Source: Marilutibacter penaei (GTDB lineage Bacteria > Pseudomonadota > Gammaproteobacteria > Xanthomonadales > Xanthomonadaceae). Taken from it: a DNA stretch of 64,000 nucleotides. The first letter of the stretch is position 1. Every line of letters starts with the position of its first letter. The translations under genes were made by a program, and so were the position numbers. The stretch is from the NCBI RefSeq assembly GCF_014145395.1, contig NZ_JACHTE010000004.1, positions 124,001 to 188,000 of the forward strand, written 5' to 3'. A model generated the notes under the pieces. It was not told where the DNA came from, ran no database searches, and saw nothing but the letters and a program-made list of their open reading frames with translations. Positions 49,755 through 58,233 of this stretch are shown here, in pieces.

Positions 49755-51143
49755 ATGCCCCGAACCTTCATCGACTGGCTTCGCCGCGCCCCCGTGCGCA
49801 ACGCCATCGACCGCCAGAACGCGCCAACCATGCAGGTCCTGCTCGCCTTCAACGGGGCGACGCTCGCCCTGAGCTGGCTGTGGCACCTGACCGCGCATGA
49901 GATCCCGGACGAGTGGCGCTTCGTGTTCGCCATGGACATCGTCACGATCGTGGTGGCCTTCATGGGAGTCGCACTGATACGGCTCGGGCGCTTCAGGGTA
50001 GCGGTGAAGCTCTACCTGGCCTGCCTGGTCGCGTCCAACTTCCTGACATACCGGCAGCTCGGTGCCTCGGACATGCTCATGGACCAGGCGACCATGATCC
50101 TGATCCTGGTGGTCAGTGGCCTGGTGCTGGGGCGACGCGCACTGTGGACCGCGTTCGGTCTGGTGGTCGCCATCCTCGTCACCGGTTTCGTCACCGATTG
50201 GCGCGCGTTGCCCGCCGGCATGGCATGGAACCGCACCGATCTCGTCAATGCACCCGGCCTCTTGCTGAGCTACACCGTCATCACCCTCGTGCTCGACCGC
50301 ACCGTCGATGCGCTGCGACGCAGCCTCGCGCAGGCCGACGCGCGCAGCCGGGCCCTGCGCCGGGAAGTCGCCCAGCGCGAACGTGCCCAGGCGCAGTTGA
50401 TCCAGTCCCAGAAGCGCGAAGCCACCGGACGGCTCGCAGCCGGCGTCGCCCACGATTTCGGCAACCTGCTGAACGTCATCAAGGGGTTCACGACGCAGCG
50501 CGACGCCAGTGCCACGCTATCCGATGCCCAACATGCGCGGGCGATGGAAGAAGCACTGGAAGGCATCGAGGACGTCGCCGATCGCGGCATCGCCACCACC
50601 CGCAAGCTCCTGACCTTCAACCGGGAAGACGAGCTCACGCTGGAGTGGTTCGATCCGGGCGCGGTCCTGCAGAGCCTGCGACCGGTGCTTGCCCAGCTCT
50701 TCCCGCCCACGGTACGCCTCGAGATCGCAGCAGAACCGTCGCCGTGGCGCATCCACCTCGACAAGAACGAGTTCGAGCTGATGGTCCTCAACATCGCCGC
50801 CAACGCGCGCGACGCCATGCCCGAGGGCGGTCACTTTCGCATCGACGCGGCAACCTCGGGCGAACACCGCTTCGAAATCCGCTTCGCCGACGACGGGAGC
50901 GGGATGGATGCGACCACGCGCGACCGCGTCTTCCAGCCGTTCTTCAGCACCAAATCCCCCGGCCAGGGCACCGGGCTGGGACTTTCCGTGGTCCATGACC
51001 TGGTCACCTTGGCCGGCGGCACGATCGGCCTGGAGACTGCGCCCGGGCAAGGCACCTGCGTGCGGATCCTGCTGCCGGCGAAGCGCACCACGCCCGACCT
51101 ACCGCCTTCCGACGCCCGTCAGGCCCCCAGCGCCAGGACGTAA
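49755..51143 (+). CDS. Membrane sensor histidine kinase
   Basis: A 462-residue kinase. The first 190 residues carry about five or six transmembrane helices with little periplasmic sequence, then a short coiled coil (ADARSRALRREVAQRERAQAQ), a HisKA-like domain with GVAHDFGNLLNVI and an HATPase_c domain (NIAANARDAM, DDGSGMD, GTGLGLSVVHDL). The H-box has Gly where this subgroup usually reads HDFNNLL. The start at 49755 has no strong ribosome-binding site. Its 3' end overlaps by 25 bp the convergent response-regulator gene, its probable partner. The signal is unknown. Confidence 0.85.
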   Translation: MPRTFIDWLRRAPVRNAIDRQNAPTMQVLLAFNGATLALSWLWHLTAHEIPDEWRFVFAMDIVTIVVAFMGVALIRLGRFRVAVKLYLACLVASNFLTYRQLGASDMLMDQATMILILVVSGLVLGRRALWTAFGLVVAILVTGFVTDWRALPAGMAWNRTDLVNAPGLLLSYTVITLVLDRTVDALRRSLAQADARSRALRREVAQRERAQAQLIQSQKREATGRLAAGVAHDFGNLLNVIKGFTTQRDASATLSDAQHARAMEEALEGIEDVADRGIATTRKLLTFNREDELTLEWFDPGAVLQSLRPVLAQLFPPTVRLEIAAEPSPWRIHLDKNEFELMVLNIAANARDAMPEGGHFRIDAATSGEHRFEIRFADDGSGMDATTRDRVFQPFFSTKSPGQGTGLGLSVVHDLVTLAGGTIGLETAPGQGTCVRILLPAKRTTPDLPPSDARQAPSART

Positions 51144-51832
51144 CCGCGTCCGTGCGCGGCGCTCAGGGGCAATGGGCACCCCGCCACGCGTTCGACCTTG
51201 CGTCGCAGGCGATGGAGCAGCGAATCCAGCCGGTGCGGGTCGTAATCGTGCACGTTGTCGGTGAGTGACGCGATGATGTCCTCACGCTGCACGATCTCGC
51301 CATCGTGCCGGGCCAGGAGGTCCAGCACGCGACGCTCCGCTTCGGTCAAGGCGACCTCCGCGCCCTCCGGGCTGGACAGCACCCAGCCCCCCCGCATGAG
51401 CTGCCAGCCGTCCGCTCGGGGGGCGACAGGCGGCTCAAGTCGCCGCGCGACGCTGTACAACGTCGCCGCCAGCAGGTCGAGCTCGACCGGCTTGGCGAGA
51501 TAGGCATCCGCACCGTCGCTCAGGCCGCGTACGCGATCCGGGGTGCCGTTGCGGCCCGTGAGCATGACCACGCCCATGGCGGGATGGGAGGCGCGCACCT
51601 GCCGCACGACGGTGAAGCCATCGGAGTCAGGCAAGCCGACATCCAGCACCAGCAGATCGAAGCGTTCGCTGCGCAGGAAGCCATCCAGCTCAGCCGCCGT
51701 CTCCATGCTGGTCACCGTGAAACCGAAGTTCCGCAGGCCCGGTTCGAGTACCCGCTCGCGCAGCAACCGGTCATCCTCGAGCAAGGCGACCCGCAGCGAT
51801 GCTTTCGGCTCTGTCTGGGCGCCCACGTCCAT
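51119..51832 (-). CDS. OmpR/PhoB-family response regulator
   Basis: A 237-residue DNA-binding regulator. The receiver has the acidic pair in LLEDDRLL, phospho-acceptor Asp in LLVLDVGLPDSDGF, and switch Lys in AYLAKPVELD; the C-terminal winged helix shows LTEAERRVLDLLARHDGEIVQREDII and LLHRLRRKVERV. The ATG at 51832 has AGAGGA upstream; longer in-frame readings to 51937 are not supported. The convergent, overlapping kinase gene is the likely cognate partner; targets may include the neighbouring chitinase and adhesin (inference from proximity). Confidence 0.87.
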   Translation of the reverse strand: MDVGAQTEPKASLRVALLEDDRLLRERVLEPGLRNFGFTVTSMETAAELDGFLRSERFDLLVLDVGLPDSDGFTVVRQVRASHPAMGVVMLTGRNGTPDRVRGLSDGADAYLAKPVELDLLAATLYSVARRLEPPVAPRADGWQLMRGGWVLSSPEGAEVALTEAERRVLDLLARHDGEIVQREDIIASLTDNVHDYDPHRLDSLLHRLRRKVERVAGCPLPLSAAHGRGYVLALGA

Positions 51833-52256
51833 CGATCCTCTGGAGAGACCTCCATGGCGATGGTAACCGACGCCCCGCCGGCGCCTTGGACAACACGCCG
51901 ATGTCCCCCAGGACCTGACGATTGACCGCAAGGTCAAGAATTCATCTGTGAACGCCTACACAATCCTTATGAAATAAGGTTGACAACGATATCAATCAGG
52001 CACAGCCTCGCGGTCACAGGGGCGGAGATTGCGTTCGGCGTGTGTCACACGCGCGGATCTCGAAGGAACCGGCATGGCCTGGCGCCAGCCCGGCAATCCG
52101 CGGGTCCCTGTAGCGCATTCGATGCCCGATTCGAGGAGGCACAAGCCTCCCGCGCCTGACCGGGGGCATCGCCCCCATTGCATCGCACCGAGGGGACGTG
52201 GGCCGGCCGCATGGGAGCGGCCCGATCGCATCGCATCCGTTCTATGGAGAGACGTC
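51833..52256. other. 424-nt regulatory region between the response regulator and chitinase genes
   Basis: No gene was seen. The part around 51930-52000 is unusually AT-rich for this genome. It holds a perfect palindrome CCTTAT-GAA-ATAAGG (51965-51979), an adjoining TTGACA (51980-51985) without a good -10, a 15-nt palindrome centred on 52045 (GCGTGTG-T-CACACGC), and two leader hairpins: GGAGGC/GCCTCC (52135-52150) and GGGGGC/GCCCCC (52162-52176). Together these suggest a regulated chitinase promoter and a structured leader of unknown behaviour. Confidence 0.55.
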
Positions 52257-54341
52257 ATGAATCCGCTTGTGAAAGCAGCCAGACCCGGAAGTCTGCTGGT
52301 GTCGTGCATCCTCGCCGCACTCGCATTTGCCCCCCACCACGCACGCGCCGCCCAGTGCGACGCCGTGCCGGCGTGGAATCCCGGCACCGTCTACAACCCT
52401 GGTGACCGATTGCAGTACCAGAACCGCCTGTACCAGGCCAAGGTCCCGATCTGGAACGCGCCGCCCACGCACTGCCCGAGCTGCGGGTGGTACGAGGATC
52501 TGGGCGCCTGCGACGACAGCCCGCCCCCCGACAACGAAGCGCCGTCGGTCGCCATCACCGCGCCCGCCGATCGCTCAAGCCACCCGGCAGGCACGGCCCT
52601 GGCCGTCAGCGCGAACGCCAGCGACCGCGACGGTGCAGTGGCGCGCGTCGAGTTCTTCCGCGGCACCACCTCGCTCGGCAGCGACACCAGCGCGCCCTAC
52701 AGCGTGAGCTGGACCAACCCCGTCGCAGGCACCTACCGCTTGACCGCGGTGGCCACGGACGACGACAACGCCAGCACCACCTCGGCTCCGGTCGAAGTCA
52801 CGATCACCACCACCACGCCACCCGACGACAGCACGCCACCCAGCGTGCCGGCCGGACTGGCCTCGAGTGCGCAGACCTCCACCAGCATCACCGTGCAGTG
52901 GACCGCGTCCACCGACAACGCCGGCGGCAGCGGCGTGGCCGGCTACGACGTCTATCGCGACGGCCAGCTCGTCGGCTCCCCGGCACAGACCCGCTTCACC
53001 GACCTGGGCCTGGCGTCGGGCACGCAGTACAGCTATGCCGTGGCCGCCCGCGATGCCGCCGGCAACGTCTCGGCACGGAGCCAGGCGATCCTCGTCAGCA
53101 CCCGTGACGACGATCCACCGCCGGGCGACGGCAAGAACGTGATCGGCTACTTCACCCAGTGGGGCATCTACGGCCGTAACTACCGGGTCAAGGACATCGA
53201 CACCAGCGGTGCGGCCGCACGCCTGACGCACATCAACTATGCGTTCGGCAACGTCCGGAACAACCGCTGCGAGGTGGGCAGGACGATCCCGTCCAATCCC
53301 AATACCGGTGAGGGTGGCGATGCCTTCGCGGACTACACCAAGTCCTTCCCGGCCGACCAGAGCGTCGACGGCGTGGGCGACACCTGGGACCAGCCGCTGC
53401 GCGGCAACTGGAACCAGCTCAGGGAACTGAAGGCCAAGTATCCGAACATCAAGGTGCTGATCTCCCTGGGTGGGTGGACCTGGTCGCGCGGTTTCTCCGA
53501 GGCCGCCAAGCCCCAGAACCGCGAGGCGTTCGTGGCGTCCTGCATCGATGCCTACATCAAGGGCAACCTGCCCGTCACCGACGGGGCCGGCGGTGCCGGC
53601 GTGGCCGCGGGGGTGTTCGATGGCATCGATCTCGACTGGGAGTACCCGGTCGCCTGTGGCCTGACCTGTGGCTCGCCGGAGGACAACGCGAACTTCACCG
53701 CCTTGCTGGCCGAGTTCCGCCGCCAGCTGGATGCGCAGCGTCCGGGGCTGTTGCTGACAGTCGCCACCGGCGCCGGCATCGACAAGATCCGCGTCACCGA
53801 TCCGGGCACGTACCACCAGTACCTGGACTTCATCAACGTGATGACCTACGACTTCCACGGCGCGTGGGATCCGCGGACCAACCATCACTCGGCGCTGTTC
53901 GACTCGCCCAACGATCCGTCCACGGGCGACCAGGCGCTATACAACTCCAATGACGCGATCGAGGCCTACCTGAGCCGTGGCGTGCCCGCCCACAAGCTGA
54001 ACCTGGGTATCGGCTACTACGGCCGCGGCTGGACCAACGTGCCCAACGTCAACAACGGCCTGTACCAGAGCGGCACCGCGGCACCCGGTCGCTATGAGGC
54101 AGGCATCCAGGACTGGAAGGAACTGAAGAACCTGGGCTGGCCGAGCTTCACCGATCCGGACGCGCGGGCGCACTGGATCTACAACGGCACGACCTTCTGG
54201 AGCTTCGACGACCCGGCGCTGATCACCGAGAAGATGAGCTACGTGAAGGCACAGGGCCTGGGCGGCGCGTTCTTCTGGGAGTTCAGCGGTGACGACACCC
54301 AGGGCACGCTGACCCGCACGATCAGCAACGGCCTGAAGTAG
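52257..54341 (+). CDS. Secreted modular GH18 chitinase
   Basis: A 694-residue secreted chitinase. Order: signal peptide (LLVSCILAALAFAPHHARA); a CBM5/12-like chitin-binding module (about 36-85, AWNPGTVYNPGDRLQYQNRLYQAK); a bacterial Ig-like domain (about 97-185, PSVAITAPADRSSHPAGTALAV); a fibronectin type III domain (about 190-285); then the GH18 catalytic domain beginning NVIGYFTQWGIYGRNYRV. The active-site motif DGIDLDWE is at 455-462 with catalytic Glu462; MTYDFHGAW is also present. The start at 52257 has GGAGAG 7 nt upstream. Such enzymes degrade fungal or arthropod chitin. Confidence 0.95.
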   Translation: MNPLVKAARPGSLLVSCILAALAFAPHHARAAQCDAVPAWNPGTVYNPGDRLQYQNRLYQAKVPIWNAPPTHCPSCGWYEDLGACDDSPPPDNEAPSVAITAPADRSSHPAGTALAVSANASDRDGAVARVEFFRGTTSLGSDTSAPYSVSWTNPVAGTYRLTAVATDDDNASTTSAPVEVTITTTTPPDDSTPPSVPAGLASSAQTSTSITVQWTASTDNAGGSGVAGYDVYRDGQLVGSPAQTRFTDLGLASGTQYSYAVAARDAAGNVSARSQAILVSTRDDDPPPGDGKNVIGYFTQWGIYGRNYRVKDIDTSGAAARLTHINYAFGNVRNNRCEVGRTIPSNPNTGEGGDAFADYTKSFPADQSVDGVGDTWDQPLRGNWNQLRELKAKYPNIKVLISLGGWTWSRGFSEAAKPQNREAFVASCIDAYIKGNLPVTDGAGGAGVAAGVFDGIDLDWEYPVACGLTCGSPEDNANFTALLAEFRRQLDAQRPGLLLTVATGAGIDKIRVTDPGTYHQYLDFINVMTYDFHGAWDPRTNHHSALFDSPNDPSTGDQALYNSNDAIEAYLSRGVPAHKLNLGIGYYGRGWTNVPNVNNGLYQSGTAAPGRYEAGIQDWKELKNLGWPSFTDPDARAHWIYNGTTFWSFDDPALITEKMSYVKAQGLGGAFFWEFSGDDTQGTLTRTISNGLK

Positions 54342-54551: not shown

Positions 54552-55667
54552 CTATCCCGCGGCGATGCGGAGGACGTCGTCCAGCATGCCGGCCGCCGTG
54601 ACGCCGGCACCCGCGCCAGGCCCCTGGATGACCAGGGGTTGCTCGTCGTAGCGATCCGACCAGATGGCCACCTTGTTGTCGGTTCCGGCCCCACCCGCGA
54701 GGGGATGGTCCGCGGGCAGCGATTCCAGGCCGACGCGTGCGGCACCATCCTCCAGGCGCGCCACGAACCGCAGCTTTTCGCCGTTCTTGTAGGCCGCGGC
54801 AAACCGCTCGCGCAACGGCACATCCAGTTGCGGGAGGGCCGCATCCACGTCCGAGCGGCCCAGCGCTGCCATGGCATCAGGAACCAGCGACGTCACCCGC
54901 ACCGTATCCTGCTCGAGCTCGAAACCGGCCGCGCGCGCCAGGATCAGCAACTTGCGGCGCACGTCCTCCCCCGACAGATCCTCCCGCGGGTCCGGCTCGG
55001 TGAAGCCCGCATCGCGCGCCTGCCGCACGAAGCCCGAGAACGGACGCAGGCCATCGTAGTGATTGAACAACCATGCCAGCGAGCCCGACAACACACCGGC
55101 GATCGCAGTGACGCGATCGCCGCCGGCGCGCAACGCACGGATCGAACGCAGCAGCGGCAGGCCCGCGCCGACGGTCGCCGAGTCGCCGTACTCCGTTTGG
55201 CCGGCGGCGCACGCGGTTTCCACGGCGCGCCAGGCCGCCAACCCGGTACCCCGCGCCAGCTTGCAGGCGGTCACCACATGGAGGCCGTCCTGGAGCCAGT
55301 CGGCGTGACGGGCGGCAACCTCGGCACTGGCGGTGGCATCGATGACGATCCTGCGTCCCGACCCGCCCAGCCGGCCCGCGACATCGTCGAGACGGCTTGG
55401 ACAGGGGCTGGCCGCCAGCGCGTCGGCCACCTGCCGGAGCGCGACGCCGCCGGGGCGGCTGATGGACCGGCGCGAATTGGCCACGTGGGCCAACGTCAGG
55501 CCTTCCGCGAAACCGGTCGACTGCCAGGCCGACAACCGCTCGAGCACCGCGCTCCCCACCGTTCCCGTGCCCAGGAGGGCCAGATGGACCGCGGGAGCCT
55601 CGACCGCCGCGGACCCTCGGGCCCGCGCCGGCGACGCATGCAGGGCCTCGGCCACCGATGCGCTCAT
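54552..55667 (-). CDS. hom: Homoserine dehydrogenase (monofunctional)
   Basis: Reduces aspartate semialdehyde to homoserine, the substrate for MetX. The 371 residues begin the Rossmann fold at LALLGTGTVGSAVLERL. The catalytic region is ITAIAGVLSGSLAWLFN-like (visible as TAIAGVLSGSLAWLFNHY), with GFTEPDPREDLSGEDVRRKLLILAR and the catalytic Lys/Asp segment. There is no aspartokinase and no C-terminal ACT domain, so it is the ThrA/MetL-type dehydrogenase domain alone. The start overlaps the metB stop (ATGA at 55667). Confidence 0.93.
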   Translation of the reverse strand: MSASVAEALHASPARARGSAAVEAPAVHLALLGTGTVGSAVLERLSAWQSTGFAEGLTLAHVANSRRSISRPGGVALRQVADALAASPCPSRLDDVAGRLGGSGRRIVIDATASAEVAARHADWLQDGLHVVTACKLARGTGLAAWRAVETACAAGQTEYGDSATVGAGLPLLRSIRALRAGGDRVTAIAGVLSGSLAWLFNHYDGLRPFSGFVRQARDAGFTEPDPREDLSGEDVRRKLLILARAAGFELEQDTVRVTSLVPDAMAALGRSDVDAALPQLDVPLRERFAAAYKNGEKLRFVARLEDGAARVGLESLPADHPLAGGAGTDNKVAIWSDRYDEQPLVIQGPGAGAGVTAAGMLDDVLRIAAG

Positions 55668-56872
55668 TGCGCCACGCGCTCGCCTTTCACCGCCGCTGCA
55701 TTGCCCTCGACCGCCGCCAGCGCACGATCCAGCGCGGCGCCGATGTCGGCGAGCAGGTCGTCCGCATGTTCGATGCCGACCGACAAGCGCAGCAGCCCGT
55801 CGCCGATGCCCGCGGCGGCACGCGCCTCGGGGCTCATCGCCGCGTGCGTCATGGTCGCCGGGTGCGCGACCAGGCTCTCCACGCCGCCCAGCGACTCGGC
55901 CAGCGTGAACGACTCCAGGCCATCGACGAAGGCACGCACGGCTGCCTCGCCGCCCCTGATGTCCACGCTCAGCATGGCGCCGAAACCTTTCTGCTGCCGC
56001 GCGGCCAGGGCATGGCCCGGATGCTCGGGGCGGCCGGGATAGTGGATGGCCTCGACCGCCGGATGCGATTCCAGCAGTTCCACCAGCGCCAGCGTGTTCT
56101 CCTGGTGCACGCGCAGCCGCGCATCGAGCGTACGCAGGCCGCGCAGGGTCAGGAAGCTGTCGAACGGCGACCCGGTCAGGCCCAGGCAGTTGCCCCACCA
56201 CGCCAGTTGCCCGCCCAGCGCCGCGTCGCGTGCGATCACCGCACCGCCGACCACGTCGCTGTGTCCGTTGATGTACTTCGTCGTGGAATGCACCACCACG
56301 TCGGCGCCGAACTCGATCGGTCGCTGCAGCACCGGCGAGAGGAAGGTGTTGTCGACGACCGCCAGCGCGCCGTTGGCCTGCGCCGCTTCGATCACGAAGC
56401 GCAGGTCGGTCACCCGCAGCAGCGGATTCGAAGGGGTCTCGATCCAGACGACAGCGGGCTTGGCGGACAGCGCGTCGGCCAGCGCGCGCGGGTCCGTCAG
56501 GTCGACCGTCAGCAGGTTGAAGGCGCCCTTGGCGGCCAGCGCGTTGAACAGGCGCCAGCTCCCGCCGTAGGCATCATGGGGGACCACGAGGGTGTCGCCC
56601 GGCTTCAGGCACGCATGCAGGACCAAGGTGATCGCGCCCATGCCGGTCGCGGTGACGACGGCGCTGTCGCCCCCCTCCAGCTCGGCCAGCGCTTCGGCCA
56701 GCAGGTCGCGGGTCGGGTTGCCGCTGCGGGTGTAGTCGTACGTGCGCTTGTTGTTGAATCCGGCGAAGCTGAAATTCGACGACAGGACGATCGGCGGCGT
56801 GACGGCGCCATAGGCGGTGTCACGATCGATGCCGGCACGGACGGCGGCGGTGGTCGGGCGACGGGTGCTCAT
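55664..56872 (-). CDS. metB: Cystathionine gamma-synthase family PLP enzyme
   Basis: A 402-residue Cys/Met metabolism PLP enzyme. PLP contacts YDYTRSGNPTRD, the Schiff-base Lys in VVHSTTKYINGHSDVVGG, and the C-terminal LRLSVGIEHADDLLADI are clear. In this operon, between an O-acylhomoserine-forming enzyme and homoserine dehydrogenase, cystathionine gamma-synthase is the most likely activity; a direct sulfhydrylase cannot be excluded from sequence alone. Starts at 56872 (MSTRRP) or 56896 are possible. Confidence 0.9.
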   Translation of the reverse strand: MSTRRPTTAAVRAGIDRDTAYGAVTPPIVLSSNFSFAGFNNKRTYDYTRSGNPTRDLLAEALAELEGGDSAVVTATGMGAITLVLHACLKPGDTLVVPHDAYGGSWRLFNALAAKGAFNLLTVDLTDPRALADALSAKPAVVWIETPSNPLLRVTDLRFVIEAAQANGALAVVDNTFLSPVLQRPIEFGADVVVHSTTKYINGHSDVVGGAVIARDAALGGQLAWWGNCLGLTGSPFDSFLTLRGLRTLDARLRVHQENTLALVELLESHPAVEAIHYPGRPEHPGHALAARQQKGFGAMLSVDIRGGEAAVRAFVDGLESFTLAESLGGVESLVAHPATMTHAAMSPEARAAAGIGDGLLRLSVGIEHADDLLADIGAALDRALAAVEGNAAAVKGERVAQ

Positions 56873-56885
56873 GCGGCGGAATTCC

Positions 56886-57941
56886 TCAACAGGCATTTCG
56901 AATGGGGGACTGGAGCGCGGCGTGAAGGATCGCGGCGATGTCCGCGTCCTCCTTCAGGAAGGCATCGTGGCCGTACGGCGAGCGCAACACCCGAAGGTGG
57001 CTTTCGCCCGCCAGCCGCTCGACCAGCGCGAACGCATCGGCGAGCGGCACCAGCCGGTCCTCCTCGATCGCGACCACGGTGGTCGGCACCCGGACCGCGG
57101 CGGGGTCGACGGATTGCAGGTCGATGGACTCGGAGAGGCGCAGGTAGGCCGTCGGCGAGCTGCGGCCGATGAACCGGGCCGCGCAATGGTCGAGGTAATC
57201 CTCGGCACCGACGCGGACGCGGCCGTCCACCACGCGGGCGGGCGGGAAGCGCGCGTCGAACTCGTCCGGGGTGCGATAGCTGAGGATGGCGAACTGGCGC
57301 GCCAGTCCGAGGCCGTGCGCTTCACCGCACTGCAGCGCGCCGAGCTCCACCGCACGCCGCTGCAGCGCGCGCCACGCACTGGCATAGGGATGGGCACGAT
57401 GGAAGCCGCTGATCGCGACCAGCCTGTCCACGCGCTCGCCATGCAGGGCGGCGAACTGCAGGCCGACCATCGCGCCGTACGAACACCCGACGAATGCCGC
57501 GATCCGCTCGATGCCCAGGGCCGTCAGCAACAGCGCGATCGCGTCCGCCTGGTCGGCCGGATCCAGCGGTGCGTCGAGGGTGCCGTCCGCGCCCAGCCAG
57601 TCGAAGGACACGATGCGACAGCAGGCCGGGTCCAGGGCGCGGCCGGGCCCGACCTGTTCCGTCCACCACCCCGGCTCGGGGAACGCTTCGCTGGCGGCCA
57701 CATGCCGGGTGGCGGAAATGCCACCGCACACGAACAGCGCGGGCAGGTGGGCGGCGCCCTGCACCTCGTAACGCAACGTGAGTTCACGGCGTCCGGCGTG
57801 CCTCAGGTCGAGCACCACCGTCCGCTCGCCTCGCAGCGCGAGGGTCGGGGCGGAAGAGACGCTGGACGCGGCGTCCGCCAGGCAGGCCGCGGCTTCGGCC
57901 GGATCGGCCTGGAGGGCATTGGAACTGTGTACGAGGCTCAT
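56886..57941 (-). CDS. metX: MetX-family homoserine O-acyltransferase
   Basis: A 351-residue alpha/beta-hydrolase that activates homoserine for methionine synthesis. The nucleophile Ser is in FVGCSYGAMVGLQFA, the catalytic Asp region in IEEDRLVPLADAF and the His in SPYGHDAFLKE. The GCSYGAM form of the elbow differs from the GGSLGGM of classical acetyltransferases; members of this group include succinyltransferases, so acyl specificity is open. The ATG at 57941 is within ATGA formed with a leader frame; an in-frame ATG at 57950 is possible. First gene of metX-metB-hom under the SAM-I riboswitch. Confidence 0.88.
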   Translation of the reverse strand: MSLVHSSNALQADPAEAAACLADAASSVSSAPTLALRGERTVVLDLRHAGRRELTLRYEVQGAAHLPALFVCGGISATRHVAASEAFPEPGWWTEQVGPGRALDPACCRIVSFDWLGADGTLDAPLDPADQADAIALLLTALGIERIAAFVGCSYGAMVGLQFAALHGERVDRLVAISGFHRAHPYASAWRALQRRAVELGALQCGEAHGLGLARQFAILSYRTPDEFDARFPPARVVDGRVRVGAEDYLDHCAARFIGRSSPTAYLRLSESIDLQSVDPAAVRVPTTVVAIEEDRLVPLADAFALVERLAGESHLRVLRSPYGHDAFLKEDADIAAILHAALQSPIRNAC

Positions 57942-58018
57942 GGCGGGCATCCGGTATGACGGGGCCATCGAGCCAGACGGGCGGCATGCACGGACTCGCC
58001 GGCATACAGCACGACCAT
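57938..58018 (-). CDS. Possible 26-residue leader frame ending at the metX start
   Basis: An ATG at 58018 opens a 26-codon frame whose TGA overlaps the metX ATG (ATGA). The product would begin MVVLYAGESVHAAR. Its ribosome-binding site is poor (GGAAG directly against the ATG), so translation is doubtful. If translated, it would couple ribosome arrival at metX to the riboswitch leader. It has no methionine-rich or otherwise attenuator-like composition. Confidence 0.22.
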   Translation of the reverse strand: MVVLYAGESVHAARLARWPRHTGCPP

Positions 58019-58029
58019 CTTCCGGCGAA

Positions 58030-58052
58030 CGAGGGATGCGGACATCGCCTCG
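58030..58052 (-). promoter_or_regulatory. Hairpin competing with riboswitch stem P1
   Basis: The 3' strand of P1 (CGATG, 58047-58043) is also part of a second helix: CGAGG-c-GATG pairs with CATC-CCTCG across the loop TCCG, nine base pairs with one bulged C. P1 and this helix cannot form together, which is the expected logic of an expression platform. No T-run follows, so it is not an intrinsic terminator by itself. Confidence 0.55.
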
Positions 58053-58141
58053 AATCACCGCAGGAATTGGCACCTTGCGCAGGCAGTGACTGCGACGGTT
58101 GCCCCGGCTTCAAAGGGCCTGTCCCTCTGCCGGTCTCGATG
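58043..58141 (-). promoter_or_regulatory. SAM-I (S-box) riboswitch upstream of metX-metB-hom
   Basis: The minus strand shows the S-box core in order: P1 5' strand CATCG (58141-58137), P2 CCGGC with GAGGGA (58133-58122), GGCCC, TGAAGCCGG (P2 3' strand), GGGGCAACC (58105-58097), a P3 arm (GCAG/CTGC), then AAGGTGCCAATTCC (58076-58063) and P4 to the P1 3' strand CGATG (58047-58043). These are the conserved SAM-binding and kink-turn elements of the family. It sits about 100 nt before a methionine biosynthesis operon, as expected for SAM feedback. Confidence 0.93.
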
Positions 58142-58151
58142 GATTGGGGGC

Positions 58152-58180
58152 AGTCTGCCCGCGCCCGACCTGGATGTCAA
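58152..58180 (-). promoter_or_regulatory. Promoter of the SAM-I riboswitch / met operon
   Basis: Perfect TTGACA (58180-58175), 17-bp spacer, CAGACT (58157-58152). Initiation 7-8 nt downstream would begin the RNA a few bases before the riboswitch P1 stem, which fits well. Confidence 0.6.
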
Positions 58181-58233
58181 TCGCTTCATTGCGATAAAGG
58201 GATTGATTGAATGGCGGCTCCCGCCACCGCGGG

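Follow-up and report, generated by a model that had tools for sequence, protein, structure and literature searches.

A SAM-I riboswitch before metX-metB-hom in Marilutibacter penaei, with a predicted start-codon switch and a SamR-type palindrome at the promoter

The analysis confirms a SAM-I riboswitch before metX-metB-hom in Marilutibacter penaei, a gammaproteobacterium from the family of Lysobacter and Xanthomonas. We consider with fair confidence that it controls translation of the metX-metB-hom mRNA through a competition between helix P1 and the start codon for one element, with SamR acting upstream. At high SAM, P1 (CCAUC/GAUGG) would be stabilised and GGCUCGAUGGC left free; pairing of this element with GCCAUGAGCC would then mask the start codon (OFF). 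At low SAM, CCAUCGAG would pair with CUCGAUGG instead, in a helix of 8 bp as against 5 in P1, and the formation of this helix would free the start codon (ON). As an upstream layer, a SamR of the ArsR/methyltransferase type probably binds a palindrome at the -35 box and limits transcription. This reading draws on the sequence elements, their conservation, their covariation and the genome-wide set of palindrome sites, all of which were observed here. The riboswitch itself is ordinary for its family, and what the analysis adds is the comparative support for the exact switch together with the SamR-type palindrome stacked upon it.

The aptamer and the operon

A covariance-model search (cmscan) of the window, that is the whole stretch of 64 kb that was analysed, gave a single Rfam match at gathering level, to RF00162 (SAM-I). 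It runs from 58145 to 58012 on the minus strand and covers model positions 1-108 of 108, with a score of 73.3 bits against a gathering score of 44.4 and an E-value of 2.9e-15. The T-box families gave no match at gathering level in the 64-kb window, and the whole genome (3,165,626 bases, 16 contigs) contains one RF00162 match. The full-length match above the gathering score and the position in the 5'UTR of methionine/SAM genes, with metX-metB-hom downstream, place the feature at 58012..58145 (minus strand) among the complete SAM-I (S-box) aptamers; a chance or decayed aptamer was ruled out by the score and the conservation.

The preliminary description, made from the letters of the DNA, had recognised a SAM-I riboswitch on the minus strand, and the RF00162 search over the whole window bears this out. 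Its span of 58043..58141 needs correction at the 3' end, which truly lies at 58012, i.e., 31 nt further, because P4 is longer than usual, with 24 residues as against 3 in the RF00162 model; the extra residues form an additional hairpin in the predicted fold. P3, which had been described as short, aligns to the model in full with 1 + 4 inserted bases. In the RF00162 alignment the 3' strand of P1, GAUGG, is found at 58015..58019 (minus strand). The 5' strand of P1 plus J1/2, CCAUCGAG, occupies 58135..58142 (minus strand) and pairs in P1 in the SAM-bound form or, in the SAM-free form, presumably with the switch element.

A methionine operon had been placed directly downstream, and metX, metB and hom were confirmed there on the same strand. 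The first, metX (56886..57941, minus strand), is of the homoserine O-succinyltransferase type (NF006449, 476 bits, cut-off 296); metB (55664..56872, minus strand) encodes a cystathionine gamma-synthase (TIGR02080, 583 bits, cut-off 505), its best model being NF006450 with 728.7, just below the cut-off of 730, and has a further in-frame start upstream at 56896. For hom (54552..55667, minus strand), encoding homoserine dehydrogenase, PF00742 and PF03447 score above cut-off and no NCBIfam model was found at or above its cut-off. Elsewhere in the window, by eye, a large ORF (52029-54341, plus strand) resembles a secreted chitinase and lies near genes resembling a histidine kinase (49755-51143, plus strand) and a response regulator (51119-51937, minus strand).

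The strong promoter that had been proposed just before P1 stands as regards its -35 box, a perfect TTGACA at 58175..58180 (minus strand); TTGACN is present in 120 of 124 unique family leaders. It is less well borne out at the presumed -10 box, CAGACT (58152..58157, minus strand), from which the transcript would start at about the first base of P1: only 3 of 6 positions match TATAAT, at a spacer of 17 bp to the -35 box, and a promoter consensus scanner reported none at its threshold. The search for an intrinsic terminator found 0, against 0.3 in shuffles, in agreement with the earlier remark that none could be recognised, and the suggestion that control may differ from the Bacillus paradigm also held, the control region being unlike the Bacillus terminator design.

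Switch element and start-codon pairing

The switch element, CUCGAUGG (57965..57972, minus strand), is a perfect 8-bp complement of CCAUCGAG (58142-58135) and thereby an anti-P1 element; with its flanks (57964-57974) it is also an anti-start-codon element; it begins 31 nt 5' of the start codon and is alternatively able to pair with the start region. In the minimum-energy fold, the start codon with codons 2-3, GCCAUGAGCC (57935..57944, minus strand), pairs with GGCUC(G)AUGGC over 10 bp with a bulged G, and a small P7b-like hairpin (57948..57961, minus strand) is predicted over the weak SD (GGA, 57952-57950). The window copy combines the 8 bp helix with a predicted fold in which 7 of the 8 element bases are paired with the start region and AUG is paired at all 3 bases. 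The leader can be placed among the translational platforms by its lack of an intrinsic terminator and its anti-AUG element, which is predicted to pair with the start codon and has an alternative pairing, with the 5' strand of P1, that P1 excludes.

Because leaders vary much in the length from aptamer to start, conservation of this arrangement was assessed by helix tests, shuffles and one contingency test. From 160 family loci, 12 could not be parsed and 24 of the other 148 were duplicates, leaving 124 unique leaders. A contiguous helix of at least 8 nt between P1-5'/J1/2 and the platform was found in 86 of the 124, against 78 of 2480 dinucleotide shuffles; with the reversed segment the number fell to 3 of 124, and with the adjacent 11 nt to 13 of 124. 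The mean energy of the P1-5'/platform duplex is -12.3 kcal/mol, as compared to -7.1 kcal/mol in shuffles. Of the 86 helix-bearing leaders, 75 have the first base of the element 28-34 nt 5' of the assigned start codon, and 78 have at least 3 element bases paired with the start region in the predicted fold of the platform. Among all 124 leaders such pairing is predicted in 94, with AUG fully paired in 67; these counts are lowered by start codons wrongly assigned in at least L039, L132, L139 and L173, where the element's own AUG was taken.

The 8-nt helix is absent from 38 of the 124 unique leaders, some of which use another platform in which a strong SD is sequestered; in L039, L132, L139 and L173 the cause is the misassigned start, and others show nothing clear. 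On inspection by eye, L082, L085, L086, L088, L094, L097 and L110 were seen to retain CUCGA with a strong SD as the OFF partner (GGACUC/GAGUCC, for example, or GGAACUC/GAGUUCC in L110), so that one design seems to serve two kinds of target, the start codon or the SD.

Folding energies place the two proposed states close together. Forced folds of the window leader gave -94.4 kcal/mol with P1 and -93.4 kcal/mol with the switch helix, i.e., about 1 kcal/mol apart, which is less than the error of a 217-nt fold; the unconstrained fold, at -96.3 kcal/mol, contains neither. The platform fold, with a z-score of -2.0 and 5 of 200 shuffles equally stable, is no more than moderately unusual when taken alone.

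Covariation at J1/2

Comparative evidence supports the specific switch predicted above. For the first base of J1/2 and its platform partner we counted G-C in 94 leaders, G-U in 3, A-U in 5, C-G in 3 and a mispair in 5, which means that the base is paired in 105 of the 110 leaders where the element was found. The sample was drawn from the 160 family loci, of which 5 were skipped, leaving 131 unique leaders, with no element found in 21 of the 131; the regular expression used leaves the tested base free. Where the first base is other than G, 8 of 12 leaders pair, against a shuffle mean of 0.74, and 0 of 10,000 shuffles reached 8; these are counts of sequences and not of events, and the shuffles ignore relatedness. 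Two genera account for the three C-G cases. At least two rows, L008 and L010, were scored at a position other than the true element. An earlier 2x2 test on CTCG/CTTG (3/5 versus 3/87, p 0.0015) was weak and is superseded by the free-base test, the two not being independent.

Comparison with the riboswitch of Xanthomonas campestris

The riboswitch is the orthologue of SAM-I_Xcc from the met operon of Xanthomonas campestris, for which SAM binding (at about 2 uM, with discrimination of SAM from SAH) and translational control have been reported (PMC7270179). Common to both are the operon (metX/metA-metB-hom), the SAM-I aptamer, the lack of a terminator, the anti-AUG AUGGC before a weak SD, and a small anti-SD hairpin, whose counterpart in the window is the P7b-like hairpin. 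In SAM-I_Xcc the anti-AUG element lies at 172-176, an anti-SD is also present, and P1 and P7a reorganise (PMC7270179). The two differ in P4, which is longer in the window, and in the distance from AUGGC to AUG, 27 nt in the window and 26 in Xcc. The M. penaei riboswitch very probably senses S-adenosylmethionine, and the copy would be expected to bind SAM and to switch in the manner described above. The S-box riboswitches of Firmicutes, for instance yitJ of B. subtilis, share the aptamer architecture and the RF00162 model with the window's riboswitch, which is set apart from them by its lack of a terminator and by a predicted translational platform that draws on the 5' strand of P1; functionally characterised SAM-I riboswitches are reported to use terminators (PMC7270179).

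The riboswitch might instead control transcription, through termination by Rho or through decay of the mRNA, and not the start codon. This has to be considered, as transcriptional fusions in Xcc were about 24% lower with SAM, expression was reduced by the three hairpins of the platform, and a part for Rho had not been ruled out (PMC7270179). However, repression reached about 98% in the Xcc translational fusion, and control there is described as mainly translational (PMC7270179); moreover, no intrinsic terminator was found here, and 78 of 86 leaders show predicted pairing between the conserved element and the start region. We therefore regard a purely transcriptional mode as improbable and retain the competition for the start codon as the preferred reading.

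A second input has also been described for SAM-I_Xcc, namely uncharged initiator tRNA bound through C181C182, with one substitution in the anti-SD abolishing the binding (PMC7270179). The tRNA response that the preliminary description mentioned for Xanthomonas is real for X. campestris, but it cannot simply be transferred, because C181C182 reads U181 C182 by index in the window (numbering set from AUGGC = 172-176 and the 200-nt length), i.e., one of the two bases differs, and on sequence grounds the window copy is not classed as tRNA-sensing. A two-input switch in which the tRNA would also bind the anti-SD bases and open the SD is, by analogy with Xcc, possible though rather doubtful: the operon and platform are orthologous, AUGGC and GGA occupy corresponding positions, and the SD lies under a small hairpin, whereas the spacing here is 27 nt, and CC is found at 181-182 in 13 of the 19 leaders that do have the Xcc spacing (26 nt, A172 to AUG).

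A SamR-type palindrome at the promoter

A 24-bp near-palindrome, ATCCCTTTATCGCAATGAAGCGAT (58180..58203, minus strand), missed in the preliminary description, abuts TTGACA and is predicted to be a SamR operator; in its 26-bp form (58179-58204) it overlaps the -35 box by 2 bp. Two other candidates were set aside: the inner palindrome ATCGC-N6-GCGAT as operator, since relatives show the longer 24-bp palindrome containing it, and MetR as the owner of the site, on the orientation of the half-sites.

The search pattern is symmetric, with 16 fixed bases, and was derived from the family leaders themselves; with the first pattern that was used, the window's site alone matched in the genome. Allowing up to 3 mismatches, 4 sites were found in the whole genome, against 1 for a control pattern, the window's palindrome having 0 mismatches and the other three sites 3 each. 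One of the three ends 9 nt before the presumed start of metK, another stands before metF, and the third precedes the gene for a 320-aa ArsR-plus-methyltransferase protein (HTH_5 + Methyltransf_11) directly upstream of metH; this last site also faces, by eye, a divergent ORF resembling an acyl-CoA dehydrogenase.

Across the family, all 60 genomes searched carry 1-5 sites with up to 2 mismatches, 160 in total, against 2 for the control; the neighbouring genes were checked for the window's genome and for the metX leaders. A site with up to 4 mismatches stands 49-57 nt before the aptamer match at 159 of 184 aptamer-bearing loci, some of which represent the same genome from two collections, and 3 of 3680 shuffles reached 4 mismatches. 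At the same threshold the palindrome is absent from all 16 alphaproteobacterial loci. Two of the 160 family loci, L091 and L190, lack it within 75 nt; the genome of L190 does carry a site farther upstream. By eye, other inverted-repeat-like sequences, perhaps a diverged operator, are seen at about the palindrome's place in L066 (a Rhodanobacteraceae MAG), L067 (a Dokdonella MAG) and L069 (Lysobacteraceae bacterium PS02065).

A SamR regulon with a 24-bp palindrome has been predicted from 4 Xanthomonadales genomes, with targets that include metX2, metB, hom, metK and metF and with samR beside metH at a shared site (PMC4239095). The genome of the window resembles this prediction in the palindrome and in the metX/metB/hom, metK, metF and samR-metH gene set. 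Upstream of the operon the 24-bp palindrome has 0 mismatches to the pattern, which was derived from the leaders rather than from the published logo. The SahR-like gene of the ArsR type next to metH, where this site recurs at 3 mismatches, is a samR candidate by its domains. SamR would bind the palindrome as a repressor and respond to an effector, presumably the SAM or SAH between which the regulon prediction did not decide (PMC4239095). The riboswitch classes scored in that study were SAH, SAM_alpha and SAM-SAH, without SAM-I, and its available text does not describe an operon under SAM-I control whose -35 box adjoins the palindrome (PMC4239095). SamR is not mentioned in the main texts of PMC7270179 and PMC6230763, and in the open-licence PMC literature, going by titles, abstracts or passages, we found no paper joining SamR and this riboswitch. 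In the operon studied here, SamR and SAM-I control appear to be stacked.

One result from Xcc counts against the SamR layer responding to methionine there: fusions carrying 52 or 109 bp of the DNA that precedes the start site showed no methionine response; the response came from the 5'UTR and not from the promoter (PMC6230763). This unresponsive promoter would also suit a palindrome that belongs to another factor or serves the promoter only, as would the facts that the palindrome is a SamR site by prediction, that the pattern was drawn from the same leaders, that the other sites have 3 mismatches with the control giving 1 site as well, and that the samR-side site has a second, divergent neighbour. 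We nevertheless think it unlikely that the palindrome is something other than a SamR operator, considering that the other sites, at metK, metF and samR-metH, form part of the predicted SamR set (PMC4239095) and that the site is retained where the aptamer has been lost.

If the palindrome is the SamR operator, two SAM-cycle sensors may, in this family, be stacked on little more than 250 bp, with SamR as a repressor at the -35 box, possibly sensing SAH, and the SAM-I RNA acting at the start codon and sensing SAM, and the operon would then compute the SAM/SAH state, i.e., read this state rather than the SAM level; we put this forward tentatively, as an idea somewhat short of an even chance. Two genomes of one genus, which have naturally lost the RNA but not the palindrome, provide a test of it. 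The findings widen a single characterised case, that of Xanthomonas campestris, to a family-wide design, with a comparative test of a switch in which one 8-base element is contested by a P1 strand and the start codon. A further question arises between two literatures, namely why an operon under a tight SAM riboswitch keeps the apparent palindrome of a second SAM-cycle regulator, a puzzle sharpened by the reported lack of a methionine response of the Xcc promoter (PMC6230763).

Distribution and losses

Within the family, counting the genome studied here, 277 of 297 genomes carry RF00162. The order, with the family counted in, gives 96 of 151, and the class 6 of 274; 3 of these 6 are family members, which leaves 3 of at most 271 outside the family. 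The riboswitch is ordinary for its lineage; the earlier statement that SAM-I riboswitches are rare in Gammaproteobacteria is right for the class outside the family and does not apply to the family or the order. Lysobacter spongiae, at 76%, and L. aestuarii, at 75%, are by metX the closest cultured relatives among the named ones listed; NCBI now places both names under Marilutibacter, Lysobacteraceae.

Among the 20 RF00162-negative family genomes, some of whose assemblies are incomplete, 17 lack a metX match above 41% identity, and in the other 3 the match is at 54-57%. Of the negatives with metX, L143 has its aptamer cut by a contig end. The loci L142 and L144 (genomes G135 and G154, both of genus g10) possess a metX leader without an aptamer, none being detected even at E 0.1, and by eye retain the SamR-type palindrome; other genomes of g10 carry the aptamer. 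The aptamer therefore mostly follows metX, with rare real loss.

From these two genomes, and from the presence of palindrome sites in all 60 family genomes examined, one could argue that regulation is the work of SamR and that the riboswitch is a dispensable relic. Such a reading is very hard to sustain, given that the aptamer is kept in 277 of 297 family genomes with covarying switch pairs, that 17 of the 20 negatives (incomplete assemblies among them) have no metX match above 41% identity, and that in Xcc the methionine response comes from the 5'UTR, not the promoter (PMC6230763).

A few further observations concern related elements. Two RF00162 matches per genome were found in G570, G581, G597, G659 and G663 of the same order and in G278 of the same family. 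In Alphaproteobacteria, SAM-I aptamers (RF00162, 65-89 bits) without the SamR palindrome occur upstream of MetX homologues, at L059, L060, L063 and L064 (Sphingomonas) and at L070, L071, L073, L075, L078 and L081 (Brevundimonas); in the open-licence PMC literature we found no paper that treats a SAM-I riboswitch together with Sphingomonas and Alphaproteobacteria. The window's genome also contains an SAH riboswitch (RF01057, 45.3 bits; L214:9191-9285, plus strand) between metK and metF, which stands, by eye, before an ORF resembling S-adenosylhomocysteinase, and three kinds of SAM/SAH control, by SAM-I, SamR and the SAH riboswitch, may act in this one genome.
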